In this document: piece by piece, positions 1 through 12,944 of the stretch
How the letters are laid out: the number at the start of each line of letters is the position of its first letter
How positions within the stretch are numbered: position 1 is the stretch's first letter
From: Roseivirga misakiensis
GTDB lineage: Bacteria; Bacteroidota; Bacteroidia; Cytophagales; Cyclobacteriaceae
Reading direction: 5' to 3'
DNA: 64,000 bases
Assembly: GCF_001747105.1 (NCBI RefSeq)
Contig: NZ_MDGQ01000002.1
Location: 1 to 64,000, forward strand
Translations under genes and position numbers: made by a program
The notes under the pieces: model-generated
Told to the model about the DNA's origin: nothing
Seen by the model: the letters and a program-made list of their open reading frames with translations, nothing else
Database searches by the model: none

Positions 1-96
1 GCAGATTTCAACTTAGATGGAGAGATTAATGCGGTAGACCGCAACGATTTTCAACAAAAGAACACCGGCAAAACCAGACAAGTACCAACCACCTAG
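1..96 (+). CDS. C-terminal end of a secreted dockerin-like protein (5' partial)
   Basis: The reading frame is open from base 1 and gives 31 residues before a TAG stop. They contain one EF-hand-like calcium loop (DFNLDGEINAVD) and the tail KTRQVPTT. Both are nearly the same as the ends of the two complete secreted proteins at 4591-6081 and 8528-10483. The rest of the gene lies outside the window. By analogy it would carry a signal peptide, a variable N-terminal domain and a conserved C-terminal module. It is followed after 4 bases by a helix-turn-helix gene, as in the second copy. Confidence 0.8.
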   Translation, partial: ADFNLDGEINAVDRNDFQQKNTGKTRQVPTT

Positions 97-100
97 GGCT

Positions 101-373
101 ATGACAGTAATAGAAAGACAACTGGTTGAGCATTTGATCTCAGAGTTACAAGGTTCCACATCAAGCTGGCAAAACCAGATAAAACAAAGATATCCTAACC
201 TGACGGCCTACGACCTCCGGCTATGCACCTACCTGAAGACCAACCTATCGACCAAGGAGATCGCCACCATCCTCAACATCACCCCAGATAGTGTCAAGAA
301 GGCCAAACATCGGTTAAGGAAGAAGCTCAAGATGTATCCCAATCATACCTGGGGGGTATTCTTATCAGACTAA
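101..373 (+). CDS. Stand-alone LuxR-type helix-turn-helix protein, cassette 1
   Basis: This 90-residue protein is little more than a DNA-binding domain. Residues about 35-80 (NLTAYDLRLCTYL, then LSTKEIATILNITPDSV and KKAKHRLRKKL) match a LuxR/GerE-type helix-turn-helix. It is related to the C-terminal domains of the TPR regulators nearby. There is no receiver, signal peptide or membrane segment, so it should be cytoplasmic. It starts 4 bases after the dockerin-like gene, which implies co-expression with an exported protein. It overlaps the convergent TPR regulator by 4 bases at its 3' end. The target genes are unknown; autoregulation of the cassette is a guess. Confidence 0.85.
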   Translation: MTVIERQLVEHLISELQGSTSSWQNQIKQRYPNLTAYDLRLCTYLKTNLSTKEIATILNITPDSVKKAKHRLRKKLKMYPNHTWGVFLSD

Positions 374-2379
374 AGCTCATTCAAGCCTTGCAAATACTTG
401 ATTAGGTTTTGCTCCTTTTCAAGACCTAATTTCTGCCTTAATCTATACCTAGCGGTAGTAGCACTGCTCGCCTCAATACCGAGAAAGGAAGCTATTTCCT
501 TCGTGCTAAAGTTAAGATTGACTAGCGCACAGATTTGTTCCTCTCTCGGGCTCAAGGATGGATGAAGATCTCTGAGGTTTTTATAAAAATTGGGATTGGT
601 TTCTTCAAACTGTATAGTAAATAGTTCCAGCTTCTTTTCAGAGTTGATTCCCTCTTTTGCTAGTCTGATAAGTTTGGATAAGTCAGTGTTTCTAGAAGTC
701 TGGATAATTTTCGTTTCTGTCAGCAACGAATCCAAAACCTGGTTTTTACGAGCGTCCTGTAAGGCTTTGGTCGTGAGCTGTCTATTCTTTTGTATTAACT
801 CATCTTGAAGTTTTTCTGATTCTAATTCTTTAAGTTTCCGCGATGACTTGAGTTTTCTAACACTCAGCACCGCGATCAGCACCATAATCATGGCAATTGA
901 TCCAAATGCAATTGTCAGTAGCTCATTTCTGGACTTTTTCTCTTCAATTTCTATAGTTAGCAATTCGATCTCGCCTTCTCTTTTTTCTATTTCAGCTTGC
1001 TTATTCGCAGTTTCGATCTCAGATCCTAATCGAATTAAATCACCTCTTTTTTCTAAGTTTCTAAGACTATCTCTCAGATTGTTACTTCTTTCTAAAGCAT
1101 CTAAAGCATTAGTTAATTCACCTATCTCACGATAGTACAAGTACTTCATGTATGATACCTCGGCACGCTGCTTTGGTCCCAAGACCATACTTGCTAACGA
1201 ATCAGCTTTAACCAAATAATCGAGGGTCTCCATATGTTTTCCTTCTAAGTTTTTGAGCTTTACTCTCAAAAGAAGGTTGCTGAATTTTGGGAAGTTTCTT
1301 TCATTAATTAGGGCAAGACTATCCGATATATTCAAGTAAAAAAGGGATGAATCTATATCATTTTTCTCTAACCAAAGCTTAGATAGGTTATTGGTTATAC
1401 TGGATATGTTTGCTGCCTTTAAACCTAAACTCTTCCCTCTATTGTATGCAGCGTTTGCAATGACAATAGCATTATCGAAATCCTTTTTTTGGTTGTATGC
1501 CCGAATTAACTCTAATTCTACTTTTATCGTTCTTGTTGGATTCCCTAATTGTTTTTCTTCTTCATAAACAGGTAAAAGTCGATTTATTGCTAGATCAGCG
1601 TTGTCAATCGCCGAATAGACTCTAGCAATACCTAATTGACTGTCTATTTCTACTGGTCTATAGTCCATTGCTGTGGCTATTTCGAAAGCTTTTTTATGCG
1701 CATCTAAGGCTTTAGGATAGTCATAAATATCAAAATATGCGCTCGCCATATTATTACTAATCACTGCTGTAAAGCCAGGCAATTGAATTCTTTCCATAGT
1801 TTTAAGCGCTTTGTCCCAATAGAAAAAAGCCGAATCATAAAGTAGATCATCATGAAAAAAACTAGCTCGATTTATATTCAGCCGTGCATTAAAGTAATCT
1901 GAATATTCATTGGTTTTTGGAGCTAATTCATAGCCCATTTTGAAATATTCATCTGCTAGTTTTGAATCTCCTTTTTCCCTAGTTGCTACGATTAATTCAA
2001 TTAAGATTAACATTGAACGTACAGTGTCTCCTGAAACTAAGGCTTCTTCAAAAGCACCTTGATATGCGTTTATCGCTCGATCAATCTCTCCTTTAAAAGT
2101 ATATGCTGCTGCCAAAGACTGTTTACTATTTAAAATGCCAAAAGAGAACTTCAGTTTCTCAGAGAGTTCAATGCTCCTTTCTAGGTAGAGTACCGCAGAA
2201 TCTAGGTCTACCCTGAGATAGAAACTACCCAGACGTGACAAAACTCGAGCCCCAGCTGTATCCTCTTTGATATGTGGAAGTTGACTTAGTAAGGTATCAA
2301 TGTTTTGTCTTCGTGTTTGTTGTGCTTGAGAGAAAACGCCTATCAATAAGAATAAGAGAACTATAATATGTTTTTTCAT
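370..2379 (-). CDS. Membrane-anchored TPR regulator with C-terminal LuxR-type HTH (TPR1)
   Basis: The 669-residue protein begins with a signal peptide (MKKHIIVLLFLLIGVFSQAQ). TPR-like helical repeats follow to about residue 430, then a charged coiled coil, one TM helix near 487-507, a second coiled coil and a helix-turn-helix (SPREEQICALVNLNFSTKEI) at about 605-660. The expected topology is TPRs in the periplasm and the DNA-binding domain in the cytoplasm, so it may act as a one-component transmembrane regulator. It lies 47 bases downstream of a close paralogue and is probably cotranscribed with it. A segment of about 277 bp is almost identical between the two genes. The ligand and targets are unknown. 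Confidence 0.85.
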   Translation of the reverse strand: MKKHIIVLLFLLIGVFSQAQQTRRQNIDTLLSQLPHIKEDTAGARVLSRLGSFYLRVDLDSAVLYLERSIELSEKLKFSFGILNSKQSLAAAYTFKGEIDRAINAYQGAFEEALVSGDTVRSMLILIELIVATREKGDSKLADEYFKMGYELAPKTNEYSDYFNARLNINRASFFHDDLLYDSAFFYWDKALKTMERIQLPGFTAVISNNMASAYFDIYDYPKALDAHKKAFEIATAMDYRPVEIDSQLGIARVYSAIDNADLAINRLLPVYEEEKQLGNPTRTIKVELELIRAYNQKKDFDNAIVIANAAYNRGKSLGLKAANISSITNNLSKLWLEKNDIDSSLFYLNISDSLALINERNFPKFSNLLLRVKLKNLEGKHMETLDYLVKADSLASMVLGPKQRAEVSYMKYLYYREIGELTNALDALERSNNLRDSLRNLEKRGDLIRLGSEIETANKQAEIEKREGEIELLTIEIEEKKSRNELLTIAFGSIAMIMVLIAVLSVRKLKSSRKLKELESEKLQDELIQKNRQLTTKALQDARKNQVLDSLLTETKIIQTSRNTDLSKLIRLAKEGINSEKKLELFTIQFEETNPNFYKNLRDLHPSLSPREEQICALVNLNFSTKEIASFLGIEASSATTARYRLRQKLGLEKEQNLIKYLQGLNEL
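561..837. repeat. Near-identical block shared by TPR1 and TPR2 genes (copy A)
   Basis: This segment matches 2618-2894 with about 7 mismatches in 277 bases (offset 2057), by eye. It encodes the cytoplasmic coiled-coil linker. Flanking parts of the two genes are clearly more diverged, so a recent gene-conversion tract or strong local constraint is likely. Confidence 0.85.
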
Positions 2380-2426
2380 CTTACTGCTGAATAGTATAAA
2401 CTCTTGATGGTTGGTGAAATAGAATC

Positions 2427-4451
2427 CTATAACTGATTCAAGCCTTGCAAATACTTGGTCAGGTTTTGCTCCTTTTCAAGACCCAATTTCTGTCTTAATC
2501 GATACCTCGCAGTGGTGGCGCTACCAGCCTCTATTCCAAGAAATGATGCGATTTCTTTTGTGCTAAAATTCAGATTTACCAACGCACAAATTTGTTCTTC
2601 TCTTGGACTTAAGGAAGGATGAAGATCTCTAAGGTTTTTATAAAAATTGGGATTGGTTTCTTCAAACTGTAGAGTAAATAGTTCCAGCTTTTTTTCAGAG
2701 TTGATTCCCTCTTTTGCTAGTCTGATAAGTTTGGATAAGTCAGTGTTCTTAGAAGTCTGGATATTTTTCGTTTCTGTCAGCAACGAATCCAAAACCTGGT
2801 TTTTACGAGCGTCCTGTAAGGCTTTGGTCGTGAGCTGTCTATTCTTTTGTATTAACTCATCTTGAAGTTTTTCTGATTCCAATTCTTTAAGTTTTCGAGC
2901 AGATTTTAACTTTCTAACTCTTAGAATAACCATCAATATGGCGATGACTGCTGTGCATATTAAGACGATGGTAACCTGAGCGTTTTTAGACCTTCTCTCG
3001 TCAATTTCCATTGTCAACGTCTCAATCTCACTTTCCCTTTTTTTGATTTGTGCTTGCTTGTTAGCTGTTTCTATTTCTGATCCTAACCGAATTAGGTCAC
3101 CTCTTTTTTCCAGGTTTTTAAGACTATCTCTAAGATTATTACTTTTTTCCAGTGCCTCCAAAGCACTTGTCAAATCACCTACTTCTCTGTAGTACAAATA
3201 TTGCATATAGGATACCTCTGCACGCTGTTTTGGTCCTAAAACGTTACGAGCCAGTGAGTCGGCCTTTTCTAGGTATGCAAAAGTTTCACTATGCTTTCCA
3301 GATAAGTTTTTATGCTTTGTTCTGAGAATGAGGTTTCTAAATTTTGAATAGTCTTTCTCGTAAAGATTCGCAATACTGTCCGATACATTTAAGTAAAACA
3401 GAGAAGAGTCAAGTTGATTAAGTTTAAGCATAATATCAGCCACTGTGTTGGCAGACCTCGATACATTGCCATCTTTGGCTCCAATTTTGAAAGCTCGCGT
3501 ATAGGCCGACTTGGCATATATTAGAGCATTTTCATAGTCTTCTTTCTGGTAGTATGCATTAGCTAATTCCATTTCGACAGGTAACATTCTAAATGGATGC
3601 CCGTATTGTTTTTGCTCCTCATAAACTGGAATCAATGTTTCAATAGCCAAGTCAGCATTATCTATAGCAGCGTATACTCTGGCGATTCCTCTCTGTGCTT
3701 CTAGTTCAACCGGCCTGTAGTCAATCGCTGTGGCCAATTCTAGAGCTTCTTTATTTGCTTTAAGGGCATTAGGGTAGTCGTACAGGGCAAAATAAGCCGT
3801 TGCCATATCATTGGTGATAATGGCTCCATAAGCCCTGAAATTAATTTTCATCATGTAGTCCCGTGCTCTCTCCCAATAGAAAAATGCGGAATCATATTTT
3901 GCATAAGAATAGTAGAGTTTTGCATGTGTGATATCATAGAGAGAGATAAAATATGAGCTATCAGAATCTACCTTTGGAGCAAGAGCATAGCCCTCTCGGA
4001 GAATAGTCTTCGTTTTGAGTGAGTCCCCTTTTCTGTTCACATTTACCATTAAATCATTCAGTACATAAAGAGCCCCATAAAAGTTTTCGGTTGTGAGGGC
4101 TTCTTGATAAGTTTCTTCATAGATGGCTATGGCTTTATCAAGGTCACCAATGTATCCGTATGTCGTTCCTAGCCCCTTCTTAGTAGCTACAATATTTTCT
4201 GAGTACTCGAGTTTCTCTGATAGTGCTAAGCTCTTATTAAAAAAGAATAAGGCCGAATCAAGGTTTACGTCAATGTAGCGGGCACCTAGTAAGTATAAGA
4301 TTTGTGCACCAGCTTCGTCTTCTTTTAGGGTTGGTAGTTTCTGTAAGAGCGTATCAATTTTAATTCTCCGAGTTTCCTGAGCATGGGCGTTGGAGGTCAC
4401 TAGAATAATAAGCCCAGCTATTAAAAGTGCTAATGCAGTCTTTTTTGTCAT
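2427..4451 (-). CDS. Membrane-anchored TPR regulator with C-terminal LuxR-type HTH (TPR2)
   Basis: At 674 residues this is the paralogue of the gene downstream and has the same architecture: signal peptide ending ...NAHAQ, TPR array, TM helix near 495-513, coiled coil, and an HTH with the motif NFSTKEIASFLGIEAGSA. The TPR halves have diverged more than the coiled-coil and linker region, which is nearly identical at DNA level. It is probably the first gene of a two-gene minus-strand unit. It is divergent from the secreted protein at 4591, with 139 bases between the two starts. That layout fits a regulator controlling its neighbour, but the sequence does not prove it. Confidence 0.85.
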   Translation of the reverse strand: MTKKTALALLIAGLIILVTSNAHAQETRRIKIDTLLQKLPTLKEDEAGAQILYLLGARYIDVNLDSALFFFNKSLALSEKLEYSENIVATKKGLGTTYGYIGDLDKAIAIYEETYQEALTTENFYGALYVLNDLMVNVNRKGDSLKTKTILREGYALAPKVDSDSSYFISLYDITHAKLYYSYAKYDSAFFYWERARDYMMKINFRAYGAIITNDMATAYFALYDYPNALKANKEALELATAIDYRPVELEAQRGIARVYAAIDNADLAIETLIPVYEEQKQYGHPFRMLPVEMELANAYYQKEDYENALIYAKSAYTRAFKIGAKDGNVSRSANTVADIMLKLNQLDSSLFYLNVSDSIANLYEKDYSKFRNLILRTKHKNLSGKHSETFAYLEKADSLARNVLGPKQRAEVSYMQYLYYREVGDLTSALEALEKSNNLRDSLKNLEKRGDLIRLGSEIETANKQAQIKKRESEIETLTMEIDERRSKNAQVTIVLICTAVIAILMVILRVRKLKSARKLKELESEKLQDELIQKNRQLTTKALQDARKNQVLDSLLTETKNIQTSKNTDLSKLIRLAKEGINSEKKLELFTLQFEETNPNFYKNLRDLHPSLSPREEQICALVNLNFSTKEIASFLGIEAGSATTARYRLRQKLGLEKEQNLTKYLQGLNQL
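2618..2894. repeat. Near-identical block shared by TPR1 and TPR2 genes (copy B)
   Basis: This is the partner of the block at 561-837, in the same orientation and the same position of the coding frame. Confidence 0.85.
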
Positions 4452-4590
4452 GATGTGAAATTATAGAAAACAACATATTGTCTATATAAAATGTGTCCCC
4501 TTGTTTGCCATGTTCATTTCATGTCTATATGAATTTCAAGGGATTTGATACGCTAAAATACTTATTGCAGTAGTTCAAATTCTGTGATAT

Positions 4591-6081
4591 ATGCATCGAA
4601 AGTTATTGATTTTCAAAAGATTACTAGTGCCGTTCTTTTTTTCATTCCTATGTGTTCCTCTTTTGTATGCACAAGGCCTTTCTAAAGGAGATTTAGTCGT
4701 TGTGGGTTTTAATGGAGATGCTGATCCGGATGAAATCGCCTTATTGGCACTAGCAGATATTAGTACTTCGGAGACCTTTTACCTTACCGATTATCCTGTT
4801 ACCAGTACTGGAGGGTTCACACTAGATGTCTCGAATGGAACGAATGGATCATTGGGTATAACTCCGACTTCAACCATTACCGCAGGCACTATTTTCACAA
4901 TCTCAATTGCTAGTGGCACCGCTTCAGTTTCAGTATCGGGAGCGTCAGTATCGACAACAATTACAGGGTGGACGAGTACGAGCTCTGCTGCTCCTTCAGG
5001 TAATGCAGGTGATGCTTGGCATCTATTTCAAGGATCTGGACTGACAAGCCCAACTAATTTTATATTTGCTTTTGCAAATACTTCACCTCATAATTCTGTT
5101 TGGAATCCACTTTCGTCAGGAGGCTTTGCTAGTACAGAATCTTACTTGGGTAATGGCCTTACCAATGGGGTAAATGCGATTGATATCGGTGGCTCTAATC
5201 ATACAGATAACCTTTACTACTCCGGTTCATTTGCATCGGGTACTGCCGCGGATATTCTGGCCAGAGTAGTGAATACAGGTAATTATACAGGTGACAATTC
5301 CACTACTTTTGACATTACTGTAGATGGATCTAGTGTTTTTAATGGGGGAGGGGTAACTAGCAATCCCGGTTTTACCATTTCTGGAGGAGCGCCAACCTCC
5401 CTTGCTGTAGCATCAACAGTATTCCTAGAAGGGGCCTATAACGGTACCAACCTAAACACAACAATCAACAGCCAAATCCCTGACCAACAACCCTACAATG
5501 GTGTAAACAGTCACTCCCAAAGTACAACAGGGACGAGTATCCCATCAGGAGCAGTAGACTGGGTATTAGTAGAGCTAAGAGAAGCAGGCACAGCAGCAGG
5601 AGCAGTAAATAGCACGAGGAAGGGATCAACGGCAGGCTTTCTGATGAATGACGGAACGATCAAGGCAACAGATGGCACCAGCAACCTAACGATCAACCTA
5701 ACGGGTAATACAGGCACAGCTTACTATGTAGTGGTCTACCACCGGAACCACCTACCGATCATGTCAGCCAATGCGATAGACGGTTCAGGAGGAACGCTAA
5801 CAATAGACTTCACCAGCAACTCAGCGAACACCTACCAGACGACGACCGCCCTAGCAAGCCTAACCAATAACAAGTTTGGGATGCCATCAGGAGATGTGAA
5901 TCAGGATGGTAGTATCAACAGCACAGACCTGAGCACATGGCGCACCAACAACGGAGCAGCCTATAGCTACTCAGGCAACGGCAGTGCCGACTTTAACCTA
6001 GATGGAGAGATCAATGCGGTAGATCGCAATGATTTCCAACAGAAGAATACAAGTAAGACCAGACAAGTACCAACCACCTAG
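4591..6081 (+). CDS. Secreted protein with dockerin-like C-terminus, cassette 2
   Basis: The 496-residue protein has a hydrophobic N-terminal export signal (to about residue 28, ending LLYAQ). Next comes a beta-rich domain resembling the 'DxxALLALADI...YLTD' modules of Bacteroidota and cyanobacterial surface proteins (about 30-255). A conserved module (about 275-430, motifs VFLEGAYNGTNL and DWVLVELREAG) follows. Two EF-hand-like loops (DVNQDGSINSTD and DFNLDGEINAVD, about 435-485) resemble a dockerin, and the protein ends KTRQVPTT. I see no classical T9SS sorting domain and no cohesin partner in the window. An HTH gene follows after 4 bases. A surface or extracellular role is likely; the binding partner is unknown. 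Confidence 0.8.
   Translation: MHRKLLIFKRLLVPFFFSFLCVPLLYAQGLSKGDLVVVGFNGDADPDEIALLALADISTSETFYLTDYPVTSTGGFTLDVSNGTNGSLGITPTSTITAGTIFTISIASGTASVSVSGASVSTTITGWTSTSSAAPSGNAGDAWHLFQGSGLTSPTNFIFAFANTSPHNSVWNPLSSGGFASTESYLGNGLTNGVNAIDIGGSNHTDNLYYSGSFASGTAADILARVVNTGNYTGDNSTTFDITVDGSSVFNGGGVTSNPGFTISGGAPTSLAVASTVFLEGAYNGTNLNTTINSQIPDQQPYNGVNSHSQSTTGTSIPSGAVDWVLVELREAGTAAGAVNSTRKGSTAGFLMNDGTIKATDGTSNLTINLTGNTGTAYYVVVYHRNHLPIMSANAIDGSGGTLTIDFTSNSANTYQTTTALASLTNNKFGMPSGDVNQDGSINSTDLSTWRTNNGAAYSYSGNGSADFNLDGEINAVDRNDFQQKNTSKTRQVPTT
5416..6080. repeat. Conserved 3' module of dockerin-like genes (copy in cassette 2)
   Basis: This block is highly similar at DNA level to 9815-10473. Long exact or near-exact runs occur around the FTSNSANTYQTTTAL and FGMPSGDVNQDG coding parts. 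Its last 96 bases also match bases 1-96 at the window's left edge. Upstream of 5416 the genes share fold-level similarity at most, so the border is sharp. Confidence 0.8.
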
Positions 6082-6085
6082 GGCT

Positions 6086-6361
6086 ATGACAGTAATAGAA
6101 AGACAACTGGTTGAGCATTTGATCACAGAGTTACAAGGTTCCACATCAAGCTGGCAAAACCAGATAAAACAAAGATATCCTCACCTGACAGCCTATGACT
6201 TGAGGCTATGTACCTACTTAAAGGCCAACCTATCGACCAAAGAAATAGCTACGCTACTGAACATCACGCCCGACAGTGTGAAGAAGGCCAAACATCGCTT
6301 AAGAAAAAAAATCATCATGAGACCAGAAGACTCATGGGGTGACTTCCTTTTCAGGTACTAA
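6086..6361 (+). CDS. Stand-alone LuxR-type helix-turn-helix protein, cassette 2
   Basis: I chose the ATG 4 bases after the upstream stop (MTVIERQLVEHL), giving 91 residues. A longer in-frame extension would only read through the dockerin gene in another frame. The first 35 codons are almost the same DNA as cassette 1. Identity then falls in the HTH codons, with mostly synonymous changes, and the last residues differ. The domain (LSTKEIATLLNITPDSVKKA) is that of LuxR/GerE regulators, without any sensory part. Tight linkage to an exported protein gene is the unusual point. Confidence 0.85.
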   Translation: MTVIERQLVEHLITELQGSTSSWQNQIKQRYPHLTAYDLRLCTYLKANLSTKEIATLLNITPDSVKKAKHRLRKKIIMRPEDSWGDFLFRY

Positions 6362-6505
6362 TCCTTTTTTGCCACAATAGAGCCCCATTTATTCAATGAA
6401 TAAGAAAACTACTCAATTACCTGATGATAGAATTTAACTTAATCAGGACGATGACTTGTGTCCCGTATCATTCTTTGATTTAAGATAGGTCTACATGATT
6501 TGACG

Positions 6506-6562
6506 CTGTCAGGGGGACAGGTCTTGCTCTATTTTTACTTCAAGTTTATATATTGGGGGACA
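6506..6562. promoter_or_regulatory. Leader of TPR3 with GGGGACA elements
   Basis: An inverted repeat CTGTC-AGGGG-GACAG lies at 6506-6520, and a second GGGGGACA at 6555-6562 just ahead of the gene at 6582. Related TGTCCC/TGTCCCC sequences occur at 6459-6464 and at 4494-4500 in the divergent promoter region upstream. The recurrence next to HTH-regulator genes suggests an operator; no binding protein can be assigned. Confidence 0.25.
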
Positions 6563-6581
6563 TAGTTTAAGTAAATCCTTA

Positions 6582-8303
6582 ATGAAAGGTTGTTTAACCG
6601 TATTCCTTTTCCTGTTTGTATTCATAAACAGTCAAGCGCAGATAAATGTCGATAGTTTAGAGTTGGTTATAGAGAAACGACCTGGTACAAGTCGGGTCGT
6701 TTTCTTAAATGAAACAGCTACTAAATTATTCAATCAAGATCCGCTGCTCTCCGAAAAATATGCTAATCGCGCACTTTCGCTTGCCAAAAGACTGGATTAT
6801 AAAGAAGGTCAAGTCGAAGCTTTAACCGTATTAGGAGCCCTCTGTAATATTAGGTTTCAACTGTCCGAAGGCAGAGAACTCTTGAGTCAGGCTTTGGCTC
6901 TGGCCGAAGAAATATCCTATGATAAAGGAATAAGTTCTGCTAACTATAGTTTAGGTTCTAATTATATGAAATCTGGATTTTATGAACTAGCAATAGAATG
7001 CTTCATCAAAGGTTTAGAGGACGCAAAGAAGAAGAAAGACTTCTCCCGAGAAATGCAAAATTTATTGGATTTAGGGATAGCAAAAACGGTAATAGGGGAG
7101 TTTGATACGGCTGAAAAGTATTTCAAAGAGGGTATTGACAGGATAAAGTCAAAAAATTCCTCTTCGAAGCCGATACATTTTATGGGTAGCCTGGGCAATC
7201 TGGAAATGGCCAGAGGTAACTACGGTTTAGCAGAGAATTATTGGTTAGAAGCGTTGAATTACATCAAACAAAGCAAAGCGGAAAGGCTATTGATTAACTG
7301 TTGGATACAACTTGGCACGATCTATTCAAAGCTTAGCTCCGAAAAACTTGCTATACAATACCTTGACAGTGCTCAAGTATTAAGTTCTGAATTAGGTTTA
7401 GTCAGCGAGAGGTTGAATATCATGCGAAGTAAGGCTAGAGTTTATCTGGATTATGGAAATATAGATAATGGTATTAAAGTTTTGGATAGTGCGATCGCTT
7501 TGAAATCGGGGTATCGGGAGGACCCTAGGTTTAAAATGGGACTCTATTCGTTGAAGGCAGATTTTAATGAAAGAATAGGGAATTATCAGGAAGCGTTTAA
7601 TGCCTACAAGATTTTCACTAACATAAAAGATAGTCTATTATTTACACAAAACTATGAGAAGATAGCCGAGGTAAATGCCAAATATGAGTTCGATCAACTT
7701 AAGAGTGAGGCTGAGGCCGAAGCACAGCTAAACGAAATAAACCAGTTAAGGATTAACCAACGAAATCTGGTGATTTTAGTCCTCTGTATTCTCTTTATGG
7801 TGAGCATATTAATCTTTCTTTGGAATAAAAAGAGGCTTGAAAATCGACTTTTACTAACCCAAAAAGAGCAAGAAATCCTTGAAAGAGAGTCTGCTTTAAA
7901 AAACCATGAAATAAAGGATCAAGGAAAACGCATATTAGATTATAAAGAAAAGCTAGAACAAGCCGAACAACAGGCAGTTAAAGAGGGCCAAGAAGATAAA
8001 CTAGTTGATTTTTTGAGGACAAGTAGTATGCATGCTGTGGATTGGGTAGCCTTTAGAATTGCATTCGATGAAAAATTTCCTTCTTTCTTTAACGCACTCG
8101 AAGAACACGTGCTCACTGTAAATGAAGAACGTCTTTGTAGTTTGATTAAACTTGGGCTAGTTACAAGGGAAATTGCAGAACTACTGGCCATAAGTCCAAA
8201 TAGTGTCATCAAAGCTAAGTCTAGACTAAACAAAAAGATGAAACTCACCAACAAACAGCATTTAGATACCTATCTAAAAGAAGTCGACTTAGCCATAAAA
8301 TAG
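6582..8303 (+). CDS. Membrane-anchored TPR regulator with C-terminal LuxR-type HTH (TPR3)
   Basis: The 573-residue protein has a signal peptide (to about residue 20, ...INSQAQ), TPR repeats to about 380, a TM helix near 397-417 (LVILVLCILFMVSILIFLW) and a long charged coiled coil. A helix-turn-helix follows at about 505-560 (ERLCSLIKLGLVTREIAELL). It shares the architecture of TPR1 and TPR2 but is shorter and well diverged. It sits between cassette 2 and cassette 3 on the same strand, with about 220 bases of leader before it and a similar gap after it, so it probably has its own promoter. It is likely a periplasm-sensing transcription factor; its ligand is unknown. Confidence 0.85.
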   Translation: MKGCLTVFLFLFVFINSQAQINVDSLELVIEKRPGTSRVVFLNETATKLFNQDPLLSEKYANRALSLAKRLDYKEGQVEALTVLGALCNIRFQLSEGRELLSQALALAEEISYDKGISSANYSLGSNYMKSGFYELAIECFIKGLEDAKKKKDFSREMQNLLDLGIAKTVIGEFDTAEKYFKEGIDRIKSKNSSSKPIHFMGSLGNLEMARGNYGLAENYWLEALNYIKQSKAERLLINCWIQLGTIYSKLSSEKLAIQYLDSAQVLSSELGLVSERLNIMRSKARVYLDYGNIDNGIKVLDSAIALKSGYREDPRFKMGLYSLKADFNERIGNYQEAFNAYKIFTNIKDSLLFTQNYEKIAEVNAKYEFDQLKSEAEAEAQLNEINQLRINQRNLVILVLCILFMVSILIFLWNKKRLENRLLLTQKEQEILERESALKNHEIKDQGKRILDYKEKLEQAEQQAVKEGQEDKLVDFLRTSSMHAVDWVAFRIAFDEKFPSFFNALEEHVLTVNEERLCSLIKLGLVTREIAELLAISPNSVIKAKSRLNKKMKLTNKQHLDTYLKEVDLAIK

Positions 8304-8320
8304 CTCGATTTAGCCTTTTT

Positions 8321-8365
8321 ATTGAAATGTCATGGTTTTTCATGGCTTATGTGATTGAAATGTCA
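8321..8365. promoter_or_regulatory. Paired 12-bp direct repeat upstream of cassette 3
   Basis: ATTGAAATGTCA occurs exactly at 8321-8332 and again at 8354-8365, 33 bp apart, about three helical turns. The pair lies between TPR3 and the secreted-protein gene of cassette 3. The spacing fits a dimeric or cooperative operator; this is inference only. Confidence 0.3.
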
Positions 8366-8527
8366 CACCTAAACTCACTCTACCCAGTAGATCATCAAAT
8401 AGATTAGTCAAATAGAAAAGAATACTTGCCGTAGAGGATTCGATAGTTTTTGTGGACATGCTATTTGAGCGGCTGATTGTGATTTCTAAAAGCGAATCGG
8501 GAGTATTCATTTCTATTTAATTGATTG

Positions 8528-10483
8528 ATGATGATTCGAAATAAGAAATGGATTTTAGGCTTTGGACTCTACTTAGTGGGGTCACTTAGTTTGTTTAGTC
8601 AAACCGATTCTAATGATAATTCTTCCAGTCAGGGCATCAGACTTAACGAGGTAGAGGTTGCTTTCTCGTCTGATGCCCTTTATGTCTCTCCAGTGAGTGA
8701 ATTTAATATTGTTTCTGATCCAGAAGAGAAAGAGATATCTGGCACAATTTTGTCAGCAAGAGATATCTGTGTTTTTGAGCTCGGTGCGGATATTACGGAT
8801 CAATTTCAGTTCATCACATTTGTAGATATTGCTGAAAATACTGTCATATATTTTTCGGCGGTAGGAGTTAATGCTTCGGGAGTATTTCAAGCTGGGAATA
8901 CAAGCTCCAGCGATGGTACTTTTGCTTATACGGTTCCTGCTGGGGGGTTAAGTGCAGGAGACATTGTAAAATGGGTTTTGGGTGCGAATTCCCCAAACTT
9001 TTCCGTATATACTGATAATATTAGTACGAGAACAGCTGAGACTAACCTTAGTTCAGGAGGGGAAAGCATTATCGTTTTTCAAAAAAGAAACGCACCACTT
9101 GGAGGTGCTAATGCTTTATCAGATCCAACGTTCATATCTATAACTTATACAGGTTCTACACAATTTGGAGGTGATCCTTCCGATACTAATGACACACATC
9201 TACCTTCTGGATTACAGACTTCTACTCCGGTCAGTGCAATGGCATTTGGTGTAGGCCCAAATCCTAGTGACGAGTATGATAATGTTATTTACAATGGAGG
9301 TTTTACATTCAATAGTGTCGATGAAGCTAAGGATGCTTTTTTTAATACCAGTAACTATCTGCCAAGTCAACTTAATAATTCATCAACTTACATAACTGCC
9401 AAAAACAATGTGCCCTCAAGAATTACATTGGCTGTGGCTGACACCGACCCTCCCACCTTCGACGTAACTCCCTCAGTGAGTTCAGTGACGAGTTCAGGTT
9501 TTATGGTAGGAGCCAGCATTGATGAAAGAGGAGATATTTACTATGTAGTAGTAGCAGATGGAGCAACAGCTCCTACATCAGTCAATGTAATCGCTGGTCA
9601 GGCCAACGGAGGAGGTTCGCCTATCGCTTCAGGCAATGGTCAAGGGCTAACAGATCCCTTTACCCTGTTTTCAGCAGTAACAGGCCTTACTGCTGGTACA
9701 GCCTATGATGTTTATGTAGTGGCTAGAGATGACGAAGGTACACCCAATGTACAATCATCTCCAATTAAAGTAGATGTGACTACCCTAGCTCCAAGTTCAT
9801 TACAAATAGCAGCCACAGTATTCCTAGAAGGCGCTTATAATGGCACCAACCTAAACACTGCAATCAATAGTAGCATCCCTGCCCAACAGCCTTATAATGG
9901 AGTCAATAGCCATAGCCAAACAACCAATGTAAGTATACCTGCTAATGCAGTAGACTGGGTGTTGGTAGAACTAAGAGAAGCAGGCACGGCGGCTACAGCG
10001 ACAAACGGAACAAGAAAGGGCTCAACAGCTGGTTTTTTGATGAATGATGGGACGATCAAAGCGACAGATGGTACCAGCAACCCAACGATCAACCTAACAG
10101 GAAACACAGGGACAGACTACTATGTGGTGGTCTACCATAGAAACCACCTACCGATCATGTCAGCCGCTGCGATAGATGGTTCAGGAGGCACACTGACCAT
10201 AGACTTCACCAGCAACTCAGCGAACACCTACCAGACGACGACCGCCCTGGCAAGCCTAACCAACAACAAGTTTGGGATGCCATCAGGAGATGTGAATCAA
10301 GATGGCAGTATCAACAGCACCGACCTGAGTACTTGGCAAACTAATAATGGTGCTGTTTACAGCTACTCGGGAAGTGGCATAGCAGACTTCAACCTAGATG
10401 GAGAGATCAATGCCGTCGACCGCAATGACTTCCAACAAAAGAATACCAGCAAAACGCGACAAGTACCAACAAGCACTTTATGA
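8528..10483 (+). CDS. Secreted protein with FN3-like and dockerin-like domains, cassette 3
   Basis: I chose an ATG at 8528, since the earlier in-frame codon is a TTG; this gives 651 residues. It has a signal peptide (ending SLSLFSQ), then a beta domain of the 'FVDIAENTVIYFSA' type (about 60-290). A fibronectin-III-like segment absent from cassette 2 follows (about 305-425, DPPTFDVTPSVSSVTSSGF). The shared module (VFLEGAYNGTNL, DWVLVELREAG) and two dockerin-like loops (DVNQDGSINSTD, DFNLDGEINAVD) end the protein. The stop codon overlaps the next HTH gene's start as ATGA. It is probably a cell-surface or released protein with Ca-binding repeats. Confidence 0.8.
   Translation: MMIRNKKWILGFGLYLVGSLSLFSQTDSNDNSSSQGIRLNEVEVAFSSDALYVSPVSEFNIVSDPEEKEISGTILSARDICVFELGADITDQFQFITFVDIAENTVIYFSAVGVNASGVFQAGNTSSSDGTFAYTVPAGGLSAGDIVKWVLGANSPNFSVYTDNISTRTAETNLSSGGESIIVFQKRNAPLGGANALSDPTFISITYTGSTQFGGDPSDTNDTHLPSGLQTSTPVSAMAFGVGPNPSDEYDNVIYNGGFTFNSVDEAKDAFFNTSNYLPSQLNNSSTYITAKNNVPSRITLAVADTDPPTFDVTPSVSSVTSSGFMVGASIDERGDIYYVVVADGATAPTSVNVIAGQANGGGSPIASGNGQGLTDPFTLFSAVTGLTAGTAYDVYVVARDDEGTPNVQSSPIKVDVTTLAPSSLQIAATVFLEGAYNGTNLNTAINSSIPAQQPYNGVNSHSQTTNVSIPANAVDWVLVELREAGTAATATNGTRKGSTAGFLMNDGTIKATDGTSNPTINLTGNTGTDYYVVVYHRNHLPIMSAAAIDGSGGTLTIDFTSNSANTYQTTTALASLTNNKFGMPSGDVNQDGSINSTDLSTWQTNNGAVYSYSGSGIADFNLDGEINAVDRNDFQQKNTSKTRQVPTSTL
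9815..10473. repeat. Conserved 3' module of dockerin-like genes (copy in cassette 3)
   Basis: This is the partner of 5416-6080 in direct orientation. It starts at the same codon (acagtattcctagaagg) and ends within the KTRQVPT codons. Differences are mainly synonymous. Confidence 0.8.
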
Positions 10484-10758
10484 CAGTTCAAGAAAGAAAT
10501 ATGGTGAATAACTTAGTTTTAGAGCTTCATGGAAAATACACCACATTGCGCCAGAAGCTATCATCTAAATATGCAGCACTGACGGAATATGACCTGCGAT
10601 TATGTATAATGCTTAAAGCAAATATTCCCACAAAGGATATCGCTCTTCTATTAAACATTACACCGGATAGCGTTAAAAAAGCAAAGCATCGGCTAAGGAG
10701 AAAAATGAAAATGCATCCGAGGCTTTCCTGGCATGAGTTTTTGGATTCTATTAACTGA
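10480..10758 (+). CDS. Stand-alone LuxR-type helix-turn-helix protein, cassette 3
   Basis: The start overlaps the stop of the dockerin-like gene in an ATGA arrangement, a classic sign of translational coupling. The 92-residue protein carries the same HTH (IPTKDIALLLNITPDSVKKA) as cassettes 1 and 2. Its N-terminus (MTVQERNMVNNLVLELHGKY) is much more diverged in DNA, so this copy has not been homogenised with the other two. It has no sensor or receiver domain. It is probably a cytoplasmic transcription factor; targets are unknown. Confidence 0.85.
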   Translation: MTVQERNMVNNLVLELHGKYTTLRQKLSSKYAALTEYDLRLCIMLKANIPTKDIALLLNITPDSVKKAKHRLRRKMKMHPRLSWHEFLDSIN

Positions 10759-10763
10759 CCCAA

Positions 10764-12182: not shown

Positions 12183-12944
12183 ATGAGAAAGAAGATAATC
12201 GCTGGAAACTGGAAAATGAATAAGAACCTAGAGGAAGGCCTTGCGCTAGCTTCTGAGGTAGTGAACATCGCAAAGGATGAAGCACCGAACGATGTCACAA
12301 TTGTAATGTGTACACCAGCTATTCATTTGTCGCAAGTAAGTGCTATGACCGCCGATTCTGCCAATGTATTTGTAGGCGCTCAAAATATGAGTGAACATGA
12401 ATCAGGTGCTTATACAGGCGATCTAGCAGCAGATATGATCACTTCTACAGGTGCATCTTATGTTATTATCGGTCACAGTGAAAGAAGAGAGTATCATTTT
12501 GAGACAAACGAGCAATTAGCAGCTCGAGTAAAACTTGCCCTTGCAAAAGGATTAACGCCACTATTCTGCTGTGGTGAATCGCTTGAAGTTCGTGAAGCAG
12601 GAAATCACGTTGAATTCGTGACTAATCAGTTGAAGGAGAGCCTATATGACTTTGGGGCTGAAGATTTAAAGAAAGTTGTTATTGCTTATGAACCAATCTG
12701 GGCTATCGGTACAGGAGTAACCGCAAGCGCTGAACAAGCGCAAGATATGCACAAGAGTATCAGAGCTTCCTTGGCTTCAAACTATTCAGATGCCGTTGCT
12801 GCCGAAATCTCTATCCTTTATGGAGGAAGTATGAAGCCAACTAACGCGCAAGAACTACTCGGTCAACCAGATGTAGATGGAGGCCTGATTGGCGGGGCAT
12901 CTCTAAAATCTAGAGACTTCATTGATATCACTAAATCCTACTAA
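12183..12944 (+). CDS. tpiA: Triosephosphate isomerase
   Basis: This enzyme interconverts dihydroxyacetone phosphate and glyceraldehyde 3-phosphate in glycolysis and gluconeogenesis in the cytoplasm. At 253 residues it has the usual length. Signature motifs are present: GNWKMN near the start (catalytic Lys11), IIGHSERR (catalytic His near 97), AYEPIWAIGTG (catalytic Glu near 167), and the phosphate-binding LYGGSMKPTNA and GGLIGGASL. Its stop overlaps the next start by one base (TAATG), so it is cotranscribed with prmA. Confidence 0.98.
   Translation: MRKKIIAGNWKMNKNLEEGLALASEVVNIAKDEAPNDVTIVMCTPAIHLSQVSAMTADSANVFVGAQNMSEHESGAYTGDLAADMITSTGASYVIIGHSERREYHFETNEQLAARVKLALAKGLTPLFCCGESLEVREAGNHVEFVTNQLKESLYDFGAEDLKKVVIAYEPIWAIGTGVTASAEQAQDMHKSIRASLASNYSDAVAAEISILYGGSMKPTNAQELLGQPDVDGGLIGGASLKSRDFIDITKSY

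Follow-up and report, generated by a model that had tools for sequence, protein, structure and literature searches.

A shuffling array of sensor-linked cassettes encoding exported proteins with dockerin-like tails in Roseivirga misakiensis

The window analysed here, the first 64 kb (from base 1) of contig NZ_MDGQ01000002.1 (hereafter C2) of the marine bacterium Roseivirga misakiensis, opens with a repetitive block in which exported proteins carrying two dockerin-like loops are followed by short genes for a helix-turn-helix protein of roughly 90 residues (HTH-only), and in which regulators built from tetratricopeptide repeats (TPR), a transmembrane (TM) segment and an HTH are interspersed. What kind of system joins a membrane sensor, an exported protein and a small DNA-binding protein? 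We found the underlying unit to be a cassette, made of a membrane sensor (either TPR-TM-HTH, or a histidine kinase plus LytTR gene), an exported protein with a variable front and a constant dockerin tail, and an HTH-only gene, in that order; both this unit and its shuffling are near-certain. The parts are ordinary and the whole is unusual. We reason, with slightly more belief than doubt, that the arrays represent a recombining library of sensor-controlled exported proteins that would plug into a cohesin-bearing protein. Among the matches listed, the open-access literature contained no description of such a cassette arrangement (subscription papers being mostly outside the scope of the search).

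The unit emerged from the comparison of four genomes (the window genome, Roseivirga sp. FE80, Roseivirga sp. UBA6061 and Flammeovirgaceae UBA6059), in whose examined DNA 58 tail-bearing genes were present. The next same-strand gene was HTH-only in 45 of the 58 (6 lie at contig edges), a count biased towards the pair by the retrieval of the FE80 and UBA6061 DNA through HTH-only matches. Within the two genomes searched with the tail itself (window genome and UBA6059), an HTH-only gene directly followed 17 of 20 tail genes (omitting two stubs at contig starts), one tail gene was at an edge, and the remaining two were followed by a small open reading frame (ORF) or a cohesin-type gene. On the upstream side, the preceding gene was TPR-HTH in 36 of the 58, TPR or HTH alone in 2 and LytTR in 11, with a histidine kinase ahead of the LytTR gene each time; of the other 9, four had an opposite-strand gene before them, three an HTH-only gene and one another tail gene, and one lay at a contig edge. 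This second sensor variant is of the LytS/LytTR type (His_kinase E 9.9e-22; Response_reg E 8.4e-17 together with LytTR E 4.8e-14; two genes, from two different cassettes).

All the genes listed in the preliminary description of the window were present where it placed them, including its pairs of exported two-loop protein and HTH-only gene, at the spacings given below. Its expectation that the pair would recur in related genomes, accompanied by TPR regulators, was borne out (TPR-HTH, TPR or HTH genes precede 38 of the 58 tail genes), as the pair is neither confined to this genome nor made up of unrelated neighbours elsewhere. The three TPR-TM-HTH regulators that it had seen among the cassettes are indeed there, with the correction that sensors belong to the unit, since a sensor-type gene stands before most tail genes. 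That account did not include the partner of cohesin type, the shuffling of cassettes, the sensor variants with a histidine kinase or, in two sister species, the tandem repeats ahead of HTH-only genes. The cassettes of the window comprise the following features:

1..96, plus strand: exported dockerin-tailed protein, C-terminal stub cut by the contig start (97% identical to constant-tail residues 191-221)
101..373, plus strand: HTH-only gene, 90 amino acids (aa), starting +4 bases from the preceding stop
370..2379, minus strand: TPR-TM-HTH sensor-regulator, reversed relative to the array (Pfam TPR_12 E 1.6e-16, GerE E 3e-5)
2427..4451, minus strand: TPR-TM-HTH sensor-regulator, reversed, paralogue of 370..2379 (TPR_12 E 2.1e-21; GerE E 4.7e-5, slightly below cut-off)
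4591..6081, plus strand: exported protein with variable front, constant dockerin tail and signal-peptide-like start (Dockerin_1 E 3.8e-6, residues 434-479)
5416..6078, plus strand: constant C-terminal module, 221 aa, with two dockerin loops (13 genome matches, all in the array or at its contig edges)
6086..6361, plus strand: HTH-only gene, 91 aa from the sibling-matching start, +4 bases from the preceding stop
6582..8303, plus strand: TPR-TM-HTH sensor-regulator of the last cassette (TPR_12 E 1.2e-19; GerE slightly below cut-off; recognition helix SPNSVIKAKSRL)
8304..8524, plus strand: sensor-to-exported-gene gap, putative regulatory region (two GAAATGTCA copies, read directly)
8525..10483, plus strand: exported protein with variable front, Fn3-like segment and constant dockerin tail (Dockerin_1 E 2.4e-5; fn3 below cut-off)
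9815..10474, plus strand: constant C-terminal module, two dockerin loops included (92% identity to 5416..6078)
10480..10758, plus strand: HTH-only gene that closes the array, 92 aa, starting -4 bases from the preceding stop (tpiA follows at 12183)

Both complete exported proteins exceed the Pfam cut-off for Dockerin_1 and end in two dockerin-type loops, and a longer ORF at 6029 is the HTH-only gene 6086..6361 read from an upstream start. The members of the inverted TPR-HTH pair (370-4451) have very similar C-terminal parts, and the first of them (370..2379) shares 4 bases with the end of the HTH-only gene at 101..373.

Genome-wide, the array holds 12 HTH-only genes (12 strong matches) and at least 12 exported dockerin-tailed proteins (two of the 13 tail matches being stubs at contig starts), split over the end of contig C3, the 12.9-kb contig C1 and the first 10.8 kb of C2. 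The first C3 tail gene lies at 1,309,235 and the last runs off the contig end, the tail being cut at residue 190 there, whereas C1 begins at residue 202 and C2 at residue 191. As the assembly breaks fall inside the repeat, the simplest reading is that of one array in the order C3, C1, C2, with cassettes possibly lost between. A genus survey recovered HTH-only genes (E 1e-24 or better) in 3 of 19 genomes, in 12, 16 and 19 copies (the other two being UBA6061 and FE80); among the matches listed for a family sample of 148 genomes, those better than 1e-25 came from two (window genome and UBA6059).

A trace of shuffling is found within the HTH-only gene, whose last dozen or so residues vary between cassettes, and whose DNA identity drops from 68-69% in the body to 46-48% (random level) in the tail in all four genomes. 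Between species, this tail follows the downstream cassette (mean score 32.1 over 13 pairs, background 12.2, P 5e-5; clear likeness in 7 of the 13), and the likeness to its own cassette is smaller (19 pairs, 16.7, P 0.03; 3 of 19 clearly alike, all of them stand-alone loci). Thus, the tail of the HTH-only gene travels with the next cassette, which indicates that the arrays shuffle through a shared block: the boundary data define a shuffling module running from the HTH tail via the sensor to the front end, and a constant block running from the dockerin tail through the recognition helix of the HTH-only protein.

Compared between genomes, front ends and sensors prove to be co-inherited (Mantel r 0.56, P 2e-4), their best partners agreeing in 36 of 51 cases (4.2 expected), and most tails of the window genome are homogenised: 9 of 11 are closest to a sibling (86-97%, versus 67-77% to other genomes), the other two being 71% and 51% identical to siblings. 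We scanned 51 of the 58 exported proteins against Pfam (the results cover 25 of the 38 families matched) and found Dockerin_1 in 44 of the 51. The fronts, where recognised, are propellers, HYDIN/ASH-type immunoglobulin (Ig) domains and Calx-beta folds, and many had no match. Compared with solved structures, the tail profile gave 16 matches up to E 10 (best E 1.9e-4), among cellulosomal enzymes and named dockerins; judged by these matches, the constant tail is type I dockerin-like, with duplicated calcium loops.

How might each cassette be controlled? The gap between the TPR-HTH stop codon and the exported gene is enriched, relative to shuffled controls, in direct repeats with a spacing of about 11 bp (z 9.6 for 10-11 bp; 34 of 36 gaps were long enough). 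With fewer shuffles, z was 7.8 (10-11 bp) and 7.9 (11-12 bp), other spacings ranging from -3.9 to 1.4, and control gaps reached 1.3 (LytTR) and 2.2 (HTH-only to sensor). The letters of the repeats follow the recognition helix of the sensor (DSV with GTCCG, NSV with GTCTG and KKxIQR with CCCC), and a class-free Mantel test of helix versus repeats gave r 0.34 (P 1e-4, 554 of 561 pairs kept). In the 18 of 33 cassettes that could be used, sites ahead of a sensor are similar to those that follow it (P 5e-5), an effect carried by 6 cassettes ranking first and suggestive of self-regulation. The gap of the last cassette in the window (8304..8524) is weak when taken alone (p 0.17), and is unlike the region ahead of the sensor (rank 15 of 18). 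On the whole, the TPR-HTH sensor very probably controls the next gene. Of the earlier suggestion that the TPR regulators and HTH-only proteins compete or cooperate on shared promoters, the action of the sensors on the adjacent exported gene gains support from sites spaced by a helical turn and tracking the recognition helix, and competition or cooperation of the HTH-only proteins with them is supported only indirectly. By eye, most other Bacteroidota HTH loci showed no clear repeats. Short membrane HTH genes of Flavobacteriaceae (L073 and L075, helix PDSVNKARYRLRKK) had TGTCCA twice at 11 bp behind the stop, in an array-like manner, and six Chryseobacterium loci (L098, L100-L104) had GTGGACA twice at 12 bp upstream of a TPR-HTH-like gene (helix DAVKKAKHRLRKK, read in L098 and L102), both noticed by eye.

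The HTH-only proteins have a recognition helix in common, in which 10 of the 14 positions (62-75) are invariant and 2 more are at least 90% conserved (44 of 56 sequences aligned, four genomes). This helix, PDSVKKAKHRLRKK, is close to that of the class in which most sensors have GTCCG sites; that these proteins bind GTCC-type repeats as a form of feedback is a proposal for which we see evenly balanced chances. They had been described as LuxR-type; all three window proteins remain under the GerE cut-off, and two pass Sigma70_r4_2. A search of solved structures with the HTH-only profile gave no match at E 0.01.

Expression of the HTH-only genes might itself be variable, as all 16 intergenic tandem repeats found in FE80 and UBA6061 (7-8 bp units of several different kinds, in about 3 to 7 copies; one assembly per species) have their end no more than about 25 bp from an HTH-only start codon, preceding 16 of 36 such genes. 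As a control, 400 kb of another FE80 contig held no intergenic tandem repeat and 5 inside ORFs; none was present in the array DNA of the window genome (12 HTH-only genes) or UBA6059 (8 genes). Tuning of HTH-only expression by repeat length, a form of phase variation, thus seems somewhat likely in these two species. Between the dockerin stop and the tandem repeat lies a non-coding stretch of about 60-80 bp, rich in AGATGATAGATTTTAGAC-like words and, by eye, apparently conserved between cassettes.

Our candidate for the socket of the dockerin tail is a cohesin-type domain, picked for adjoining such tails in distant Bacteroidota, that has a single match in the window genome, at C2:113429-113854 on a protein at the far end of C2, and whose predicted structure has the cohesin fold; the assembled part of this protein has one cohesin-type domain and Calx-beta repeats. 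Across 395 genomes, 13 of 25 cohesin-type matches lie about 400 bp or less downstream of a tail match (6 of the 13 being seeds of the profile). A type IX secretion system (T9SS) tail was present on the partner in 8 of 10 distant neighbours tested and on one UBA6059 protein. Ten distant neighbours scanned had no Pfam Cohesin match, and the tail and the partner domain are unrelated to each other by profile. Docking of the tail into this domain is, in our view, probable. Among distant Bacteroidota (L161, L162, L168, L169, L170 and others), a dockerin-tailed protein was seen to adjoin a short T9SS-tailed protein with a cohesin-type front domain.

We propose, then, a multigene system that would display interchangeable proteins outside the cell. 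The TPR (or propeller) part of the sensor is taken to face the periplasm; on a signal, the sensor would activate its own cassette by binding direct repeats that come immediately after its stop codon; part of the sensors would also bind in front of their own gene. The exported protein would then plug by its dockerin tail into the cohesin-type domain of the large protein encoded elsewhere. As every product would use the same socket, gene conversion would keep the tails alike, with front ends and sensors diverging in step. HTH-only proteins, with their common helix, would provide shared feedback through which the expression of one cassette influences others, slippage of the 7-8 bp repeats may adjust their amount in two species, and recombination between shared blocks would add, remove and reorder cassettes. 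The whole would make up a swappable surface coat under sensor control. It would unite three usually separate themes, cohesin-dockerin plugging, a private sensor per surface protein and recombining arrays, and would offer both a readable code between TPR-HTH recognition helices and DNA repeats and a sequence-divergent cohesin-type socket, unreported by the Pfam Cohesin model and found alongside dockerin-tailed proteins in distant Bacteroidota. An extended version, which we consider unlikely, describes a mutually regulating recombining coat, in which the HTH-only proteins would cast a cross-cassette vote via GTCC-type repeats, with a strength set randomly by heptamer slippage in some species, and the exported proteins, which lack a T9SS signal, would be carried out by, or plugged into, a T9SS-exported cohesin protein. 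If true, this would be a programmable bacterial coat in which many plugs, each with its own sensor, fit one socket, and the boundary of the shuffling unit falls inside a regulator gene.

Several observations weigh against our proposal. On the side of the plug and its socket, the AlphaFold model of the tail is poor (predicted local distance difference test, pLDDT, 60) and has no significant fold match; the exported proteins carry no T9SS signal within the Pfam families reported; the sequence profile of the partner, taken alone, gives no more than a hint of cohesin (E 0.075 and 0.09), no match in the window genome exceeds the Pfam Cohesin cut-off, and the cohesin-type gene lies away from the array and runs off the contig end. 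As for regulation, only 10 of 34 gaps are individually significant and a GTC[CT] pair is present in 12 of 34; the class tests are post hoc, as the helix classes came from the data on which they were tested, and one sensor outside these classes also has GTCCG. The exact GTCCG pair had a single match genome-wide (the array site) versus 8 in a reversed-pattern control; being rarer than the control, it gave no wider regulon. Moreover, the best sensor and front-end partners differ in 15 of 51 cases (apparent swaps among them include FE80_013_2091, which joins a front like those of kinase-type cassettes to a TPR-HTH sensor), their correlation is absent within genomes (r 0.06, P 0.17), the tails of FE80 and UBA6061 show weak and mixed homogenisation, 20 of the 36 HTH-only genes of these two species have no tandem repeat, and the three genomes compared with that of the window are draft records.

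Ordinary nutrient or surface sensing, by a duplicated pair of one-component regulator and secreted binding protein, is a possible though doubtful alternative, in which the HTH-only gene would be a decaying or hitchhiking TPR-HTH fragment and the dockerin loops the calcium-binding end of a stalk. The HTH-only protein does resemble the C-terminus of the sensor and its gene sits within the homogenised block, and secreted genes adjoining TPR-HTH regulators are plausible in Bacteroidota. A decaying fragment would hardly preserve, however, a helix with 12 of 14 positions invariant or nearly so, nor would this account lead us to expect seven cassettes, stand-alone in their loci, that keep an HTH-only gene behind the tail gene (loci retrieved via HTH-only matches), tandem repeats targeted to the HTH-only start, or a partner with a cohesin fold.

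Recognition between cells or kin, with front ends as tags read by cognate TPR sensors in the same or neighbouring cells and shuffling as a means of diversifying them, would suit the joint inheritance of front end and sensor, the high copy number, the patchy presence in the genus and the recombining structure. We find it improbable, as simple linkage within a cassette also predicts this co-inheritance, similar front ends occur with different sensors, and contact between sensor and front end is without evidence. Least credible, and very improbable, is a cellulosome-like complex of polymer-degrading enzymes with sensor-controlled subunits: dockerin and cohesin modules are present, some propeller families of the fronts bear enzyme names (SGL, Lactonase, Phytase-like, Vgb_lyase), and Candidatus Stygibacter, with a cohesin scaffoldin that bears a C-terminal surface-attachment domain, provides a Gram-negative precedent (PMC8542988). 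Yet no glycoside hydrolase was reported among the 25 of 38 Pfam families covered, in the 51 of 58 proteins scanned, and the assembled part of the partner offers one cohesin-type domain beside its Calx-beta repeats. The sensor-controlled library remains our preferred reading. A silent-copy antigenic-variation array, with one expression site and truncated silent cassettes, was rejected, because the cassettes are complete genes that each have an upstream region: in the window genome, every tail gene uncut by a contig end is a full ORF behind a gap of its own, save one that contains an internal stop.

Among known systems, the likeness to cohesin-dockerin surface complexes lies in the constant dockerin-type module on many different exported proteins and in the partner of cohesin fold; unlike in a cellulosome, the fronts are propeller, Ig-like or Calx-beta folds where recognised, each plug protein comes with a sensor of its own and, as a rule, an HTH-only gene, the tails are homogenised and the cassettes recombine. 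The SigI/RsgI families of Clostridium thermocellum likewise employ several membrane sensors to control dockerin-protein genes by outside substrate; those are sigma/anti-sigma pairs rather than TPR-HTH or LytTR, and are not known to come as one sensor per dockerin gene inside a recombining cassette. In their TPR, transmembrane helix (by eye) and C-terminal GerE-like HTH, the sensors recall the Bacteroidota regulators of the BT3442 (NCBIfam NF053779) and SusR families, but differ in having helix-matched repeats and an exported target next door; with scores of 31-44 (best 43.9) versus a cut-off of 940, they are, by profile, distant relatives of the BT3442 family and not members. The tandem repeats resemble simple-sequence-repeat phase-variable loci in occupying the 5' region of a gene. 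They also resemble the TAACTGA heptamers, which occur as direct repeats no more than a few bases from start codons, some Bacteroidetes included (MacGregor 2015, PMC4679880). With these they share 7-bp units close to starts, and they differ in comprising several units of 7-8 bp, every intergenic one found lying before the same gene family.

The genomic neighbourhood was assessed by searching ten query proteins in stretches of 18.0-18.7 kb holding tpiA from 8 genus genomes. The two window array genes used as queries matched in none of the 8 stretches, left-flank genes matched only paralogues of 32-42% in 3 of the 8, so that the ends of an insertion are not definable, and 2 of the 8 genomes carry cassettes, none of them found beside tpiA. 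For the first kinase plus LytTR gene of the array, a single stretch (L232) gave a match, of about 30%. Within the C3 part of the array, a dockerin gene with an in-frame TGA inside its tail (C3:1321596-1323098, L010 into L011) has a shortened plug and represents a naturally broken cassette.

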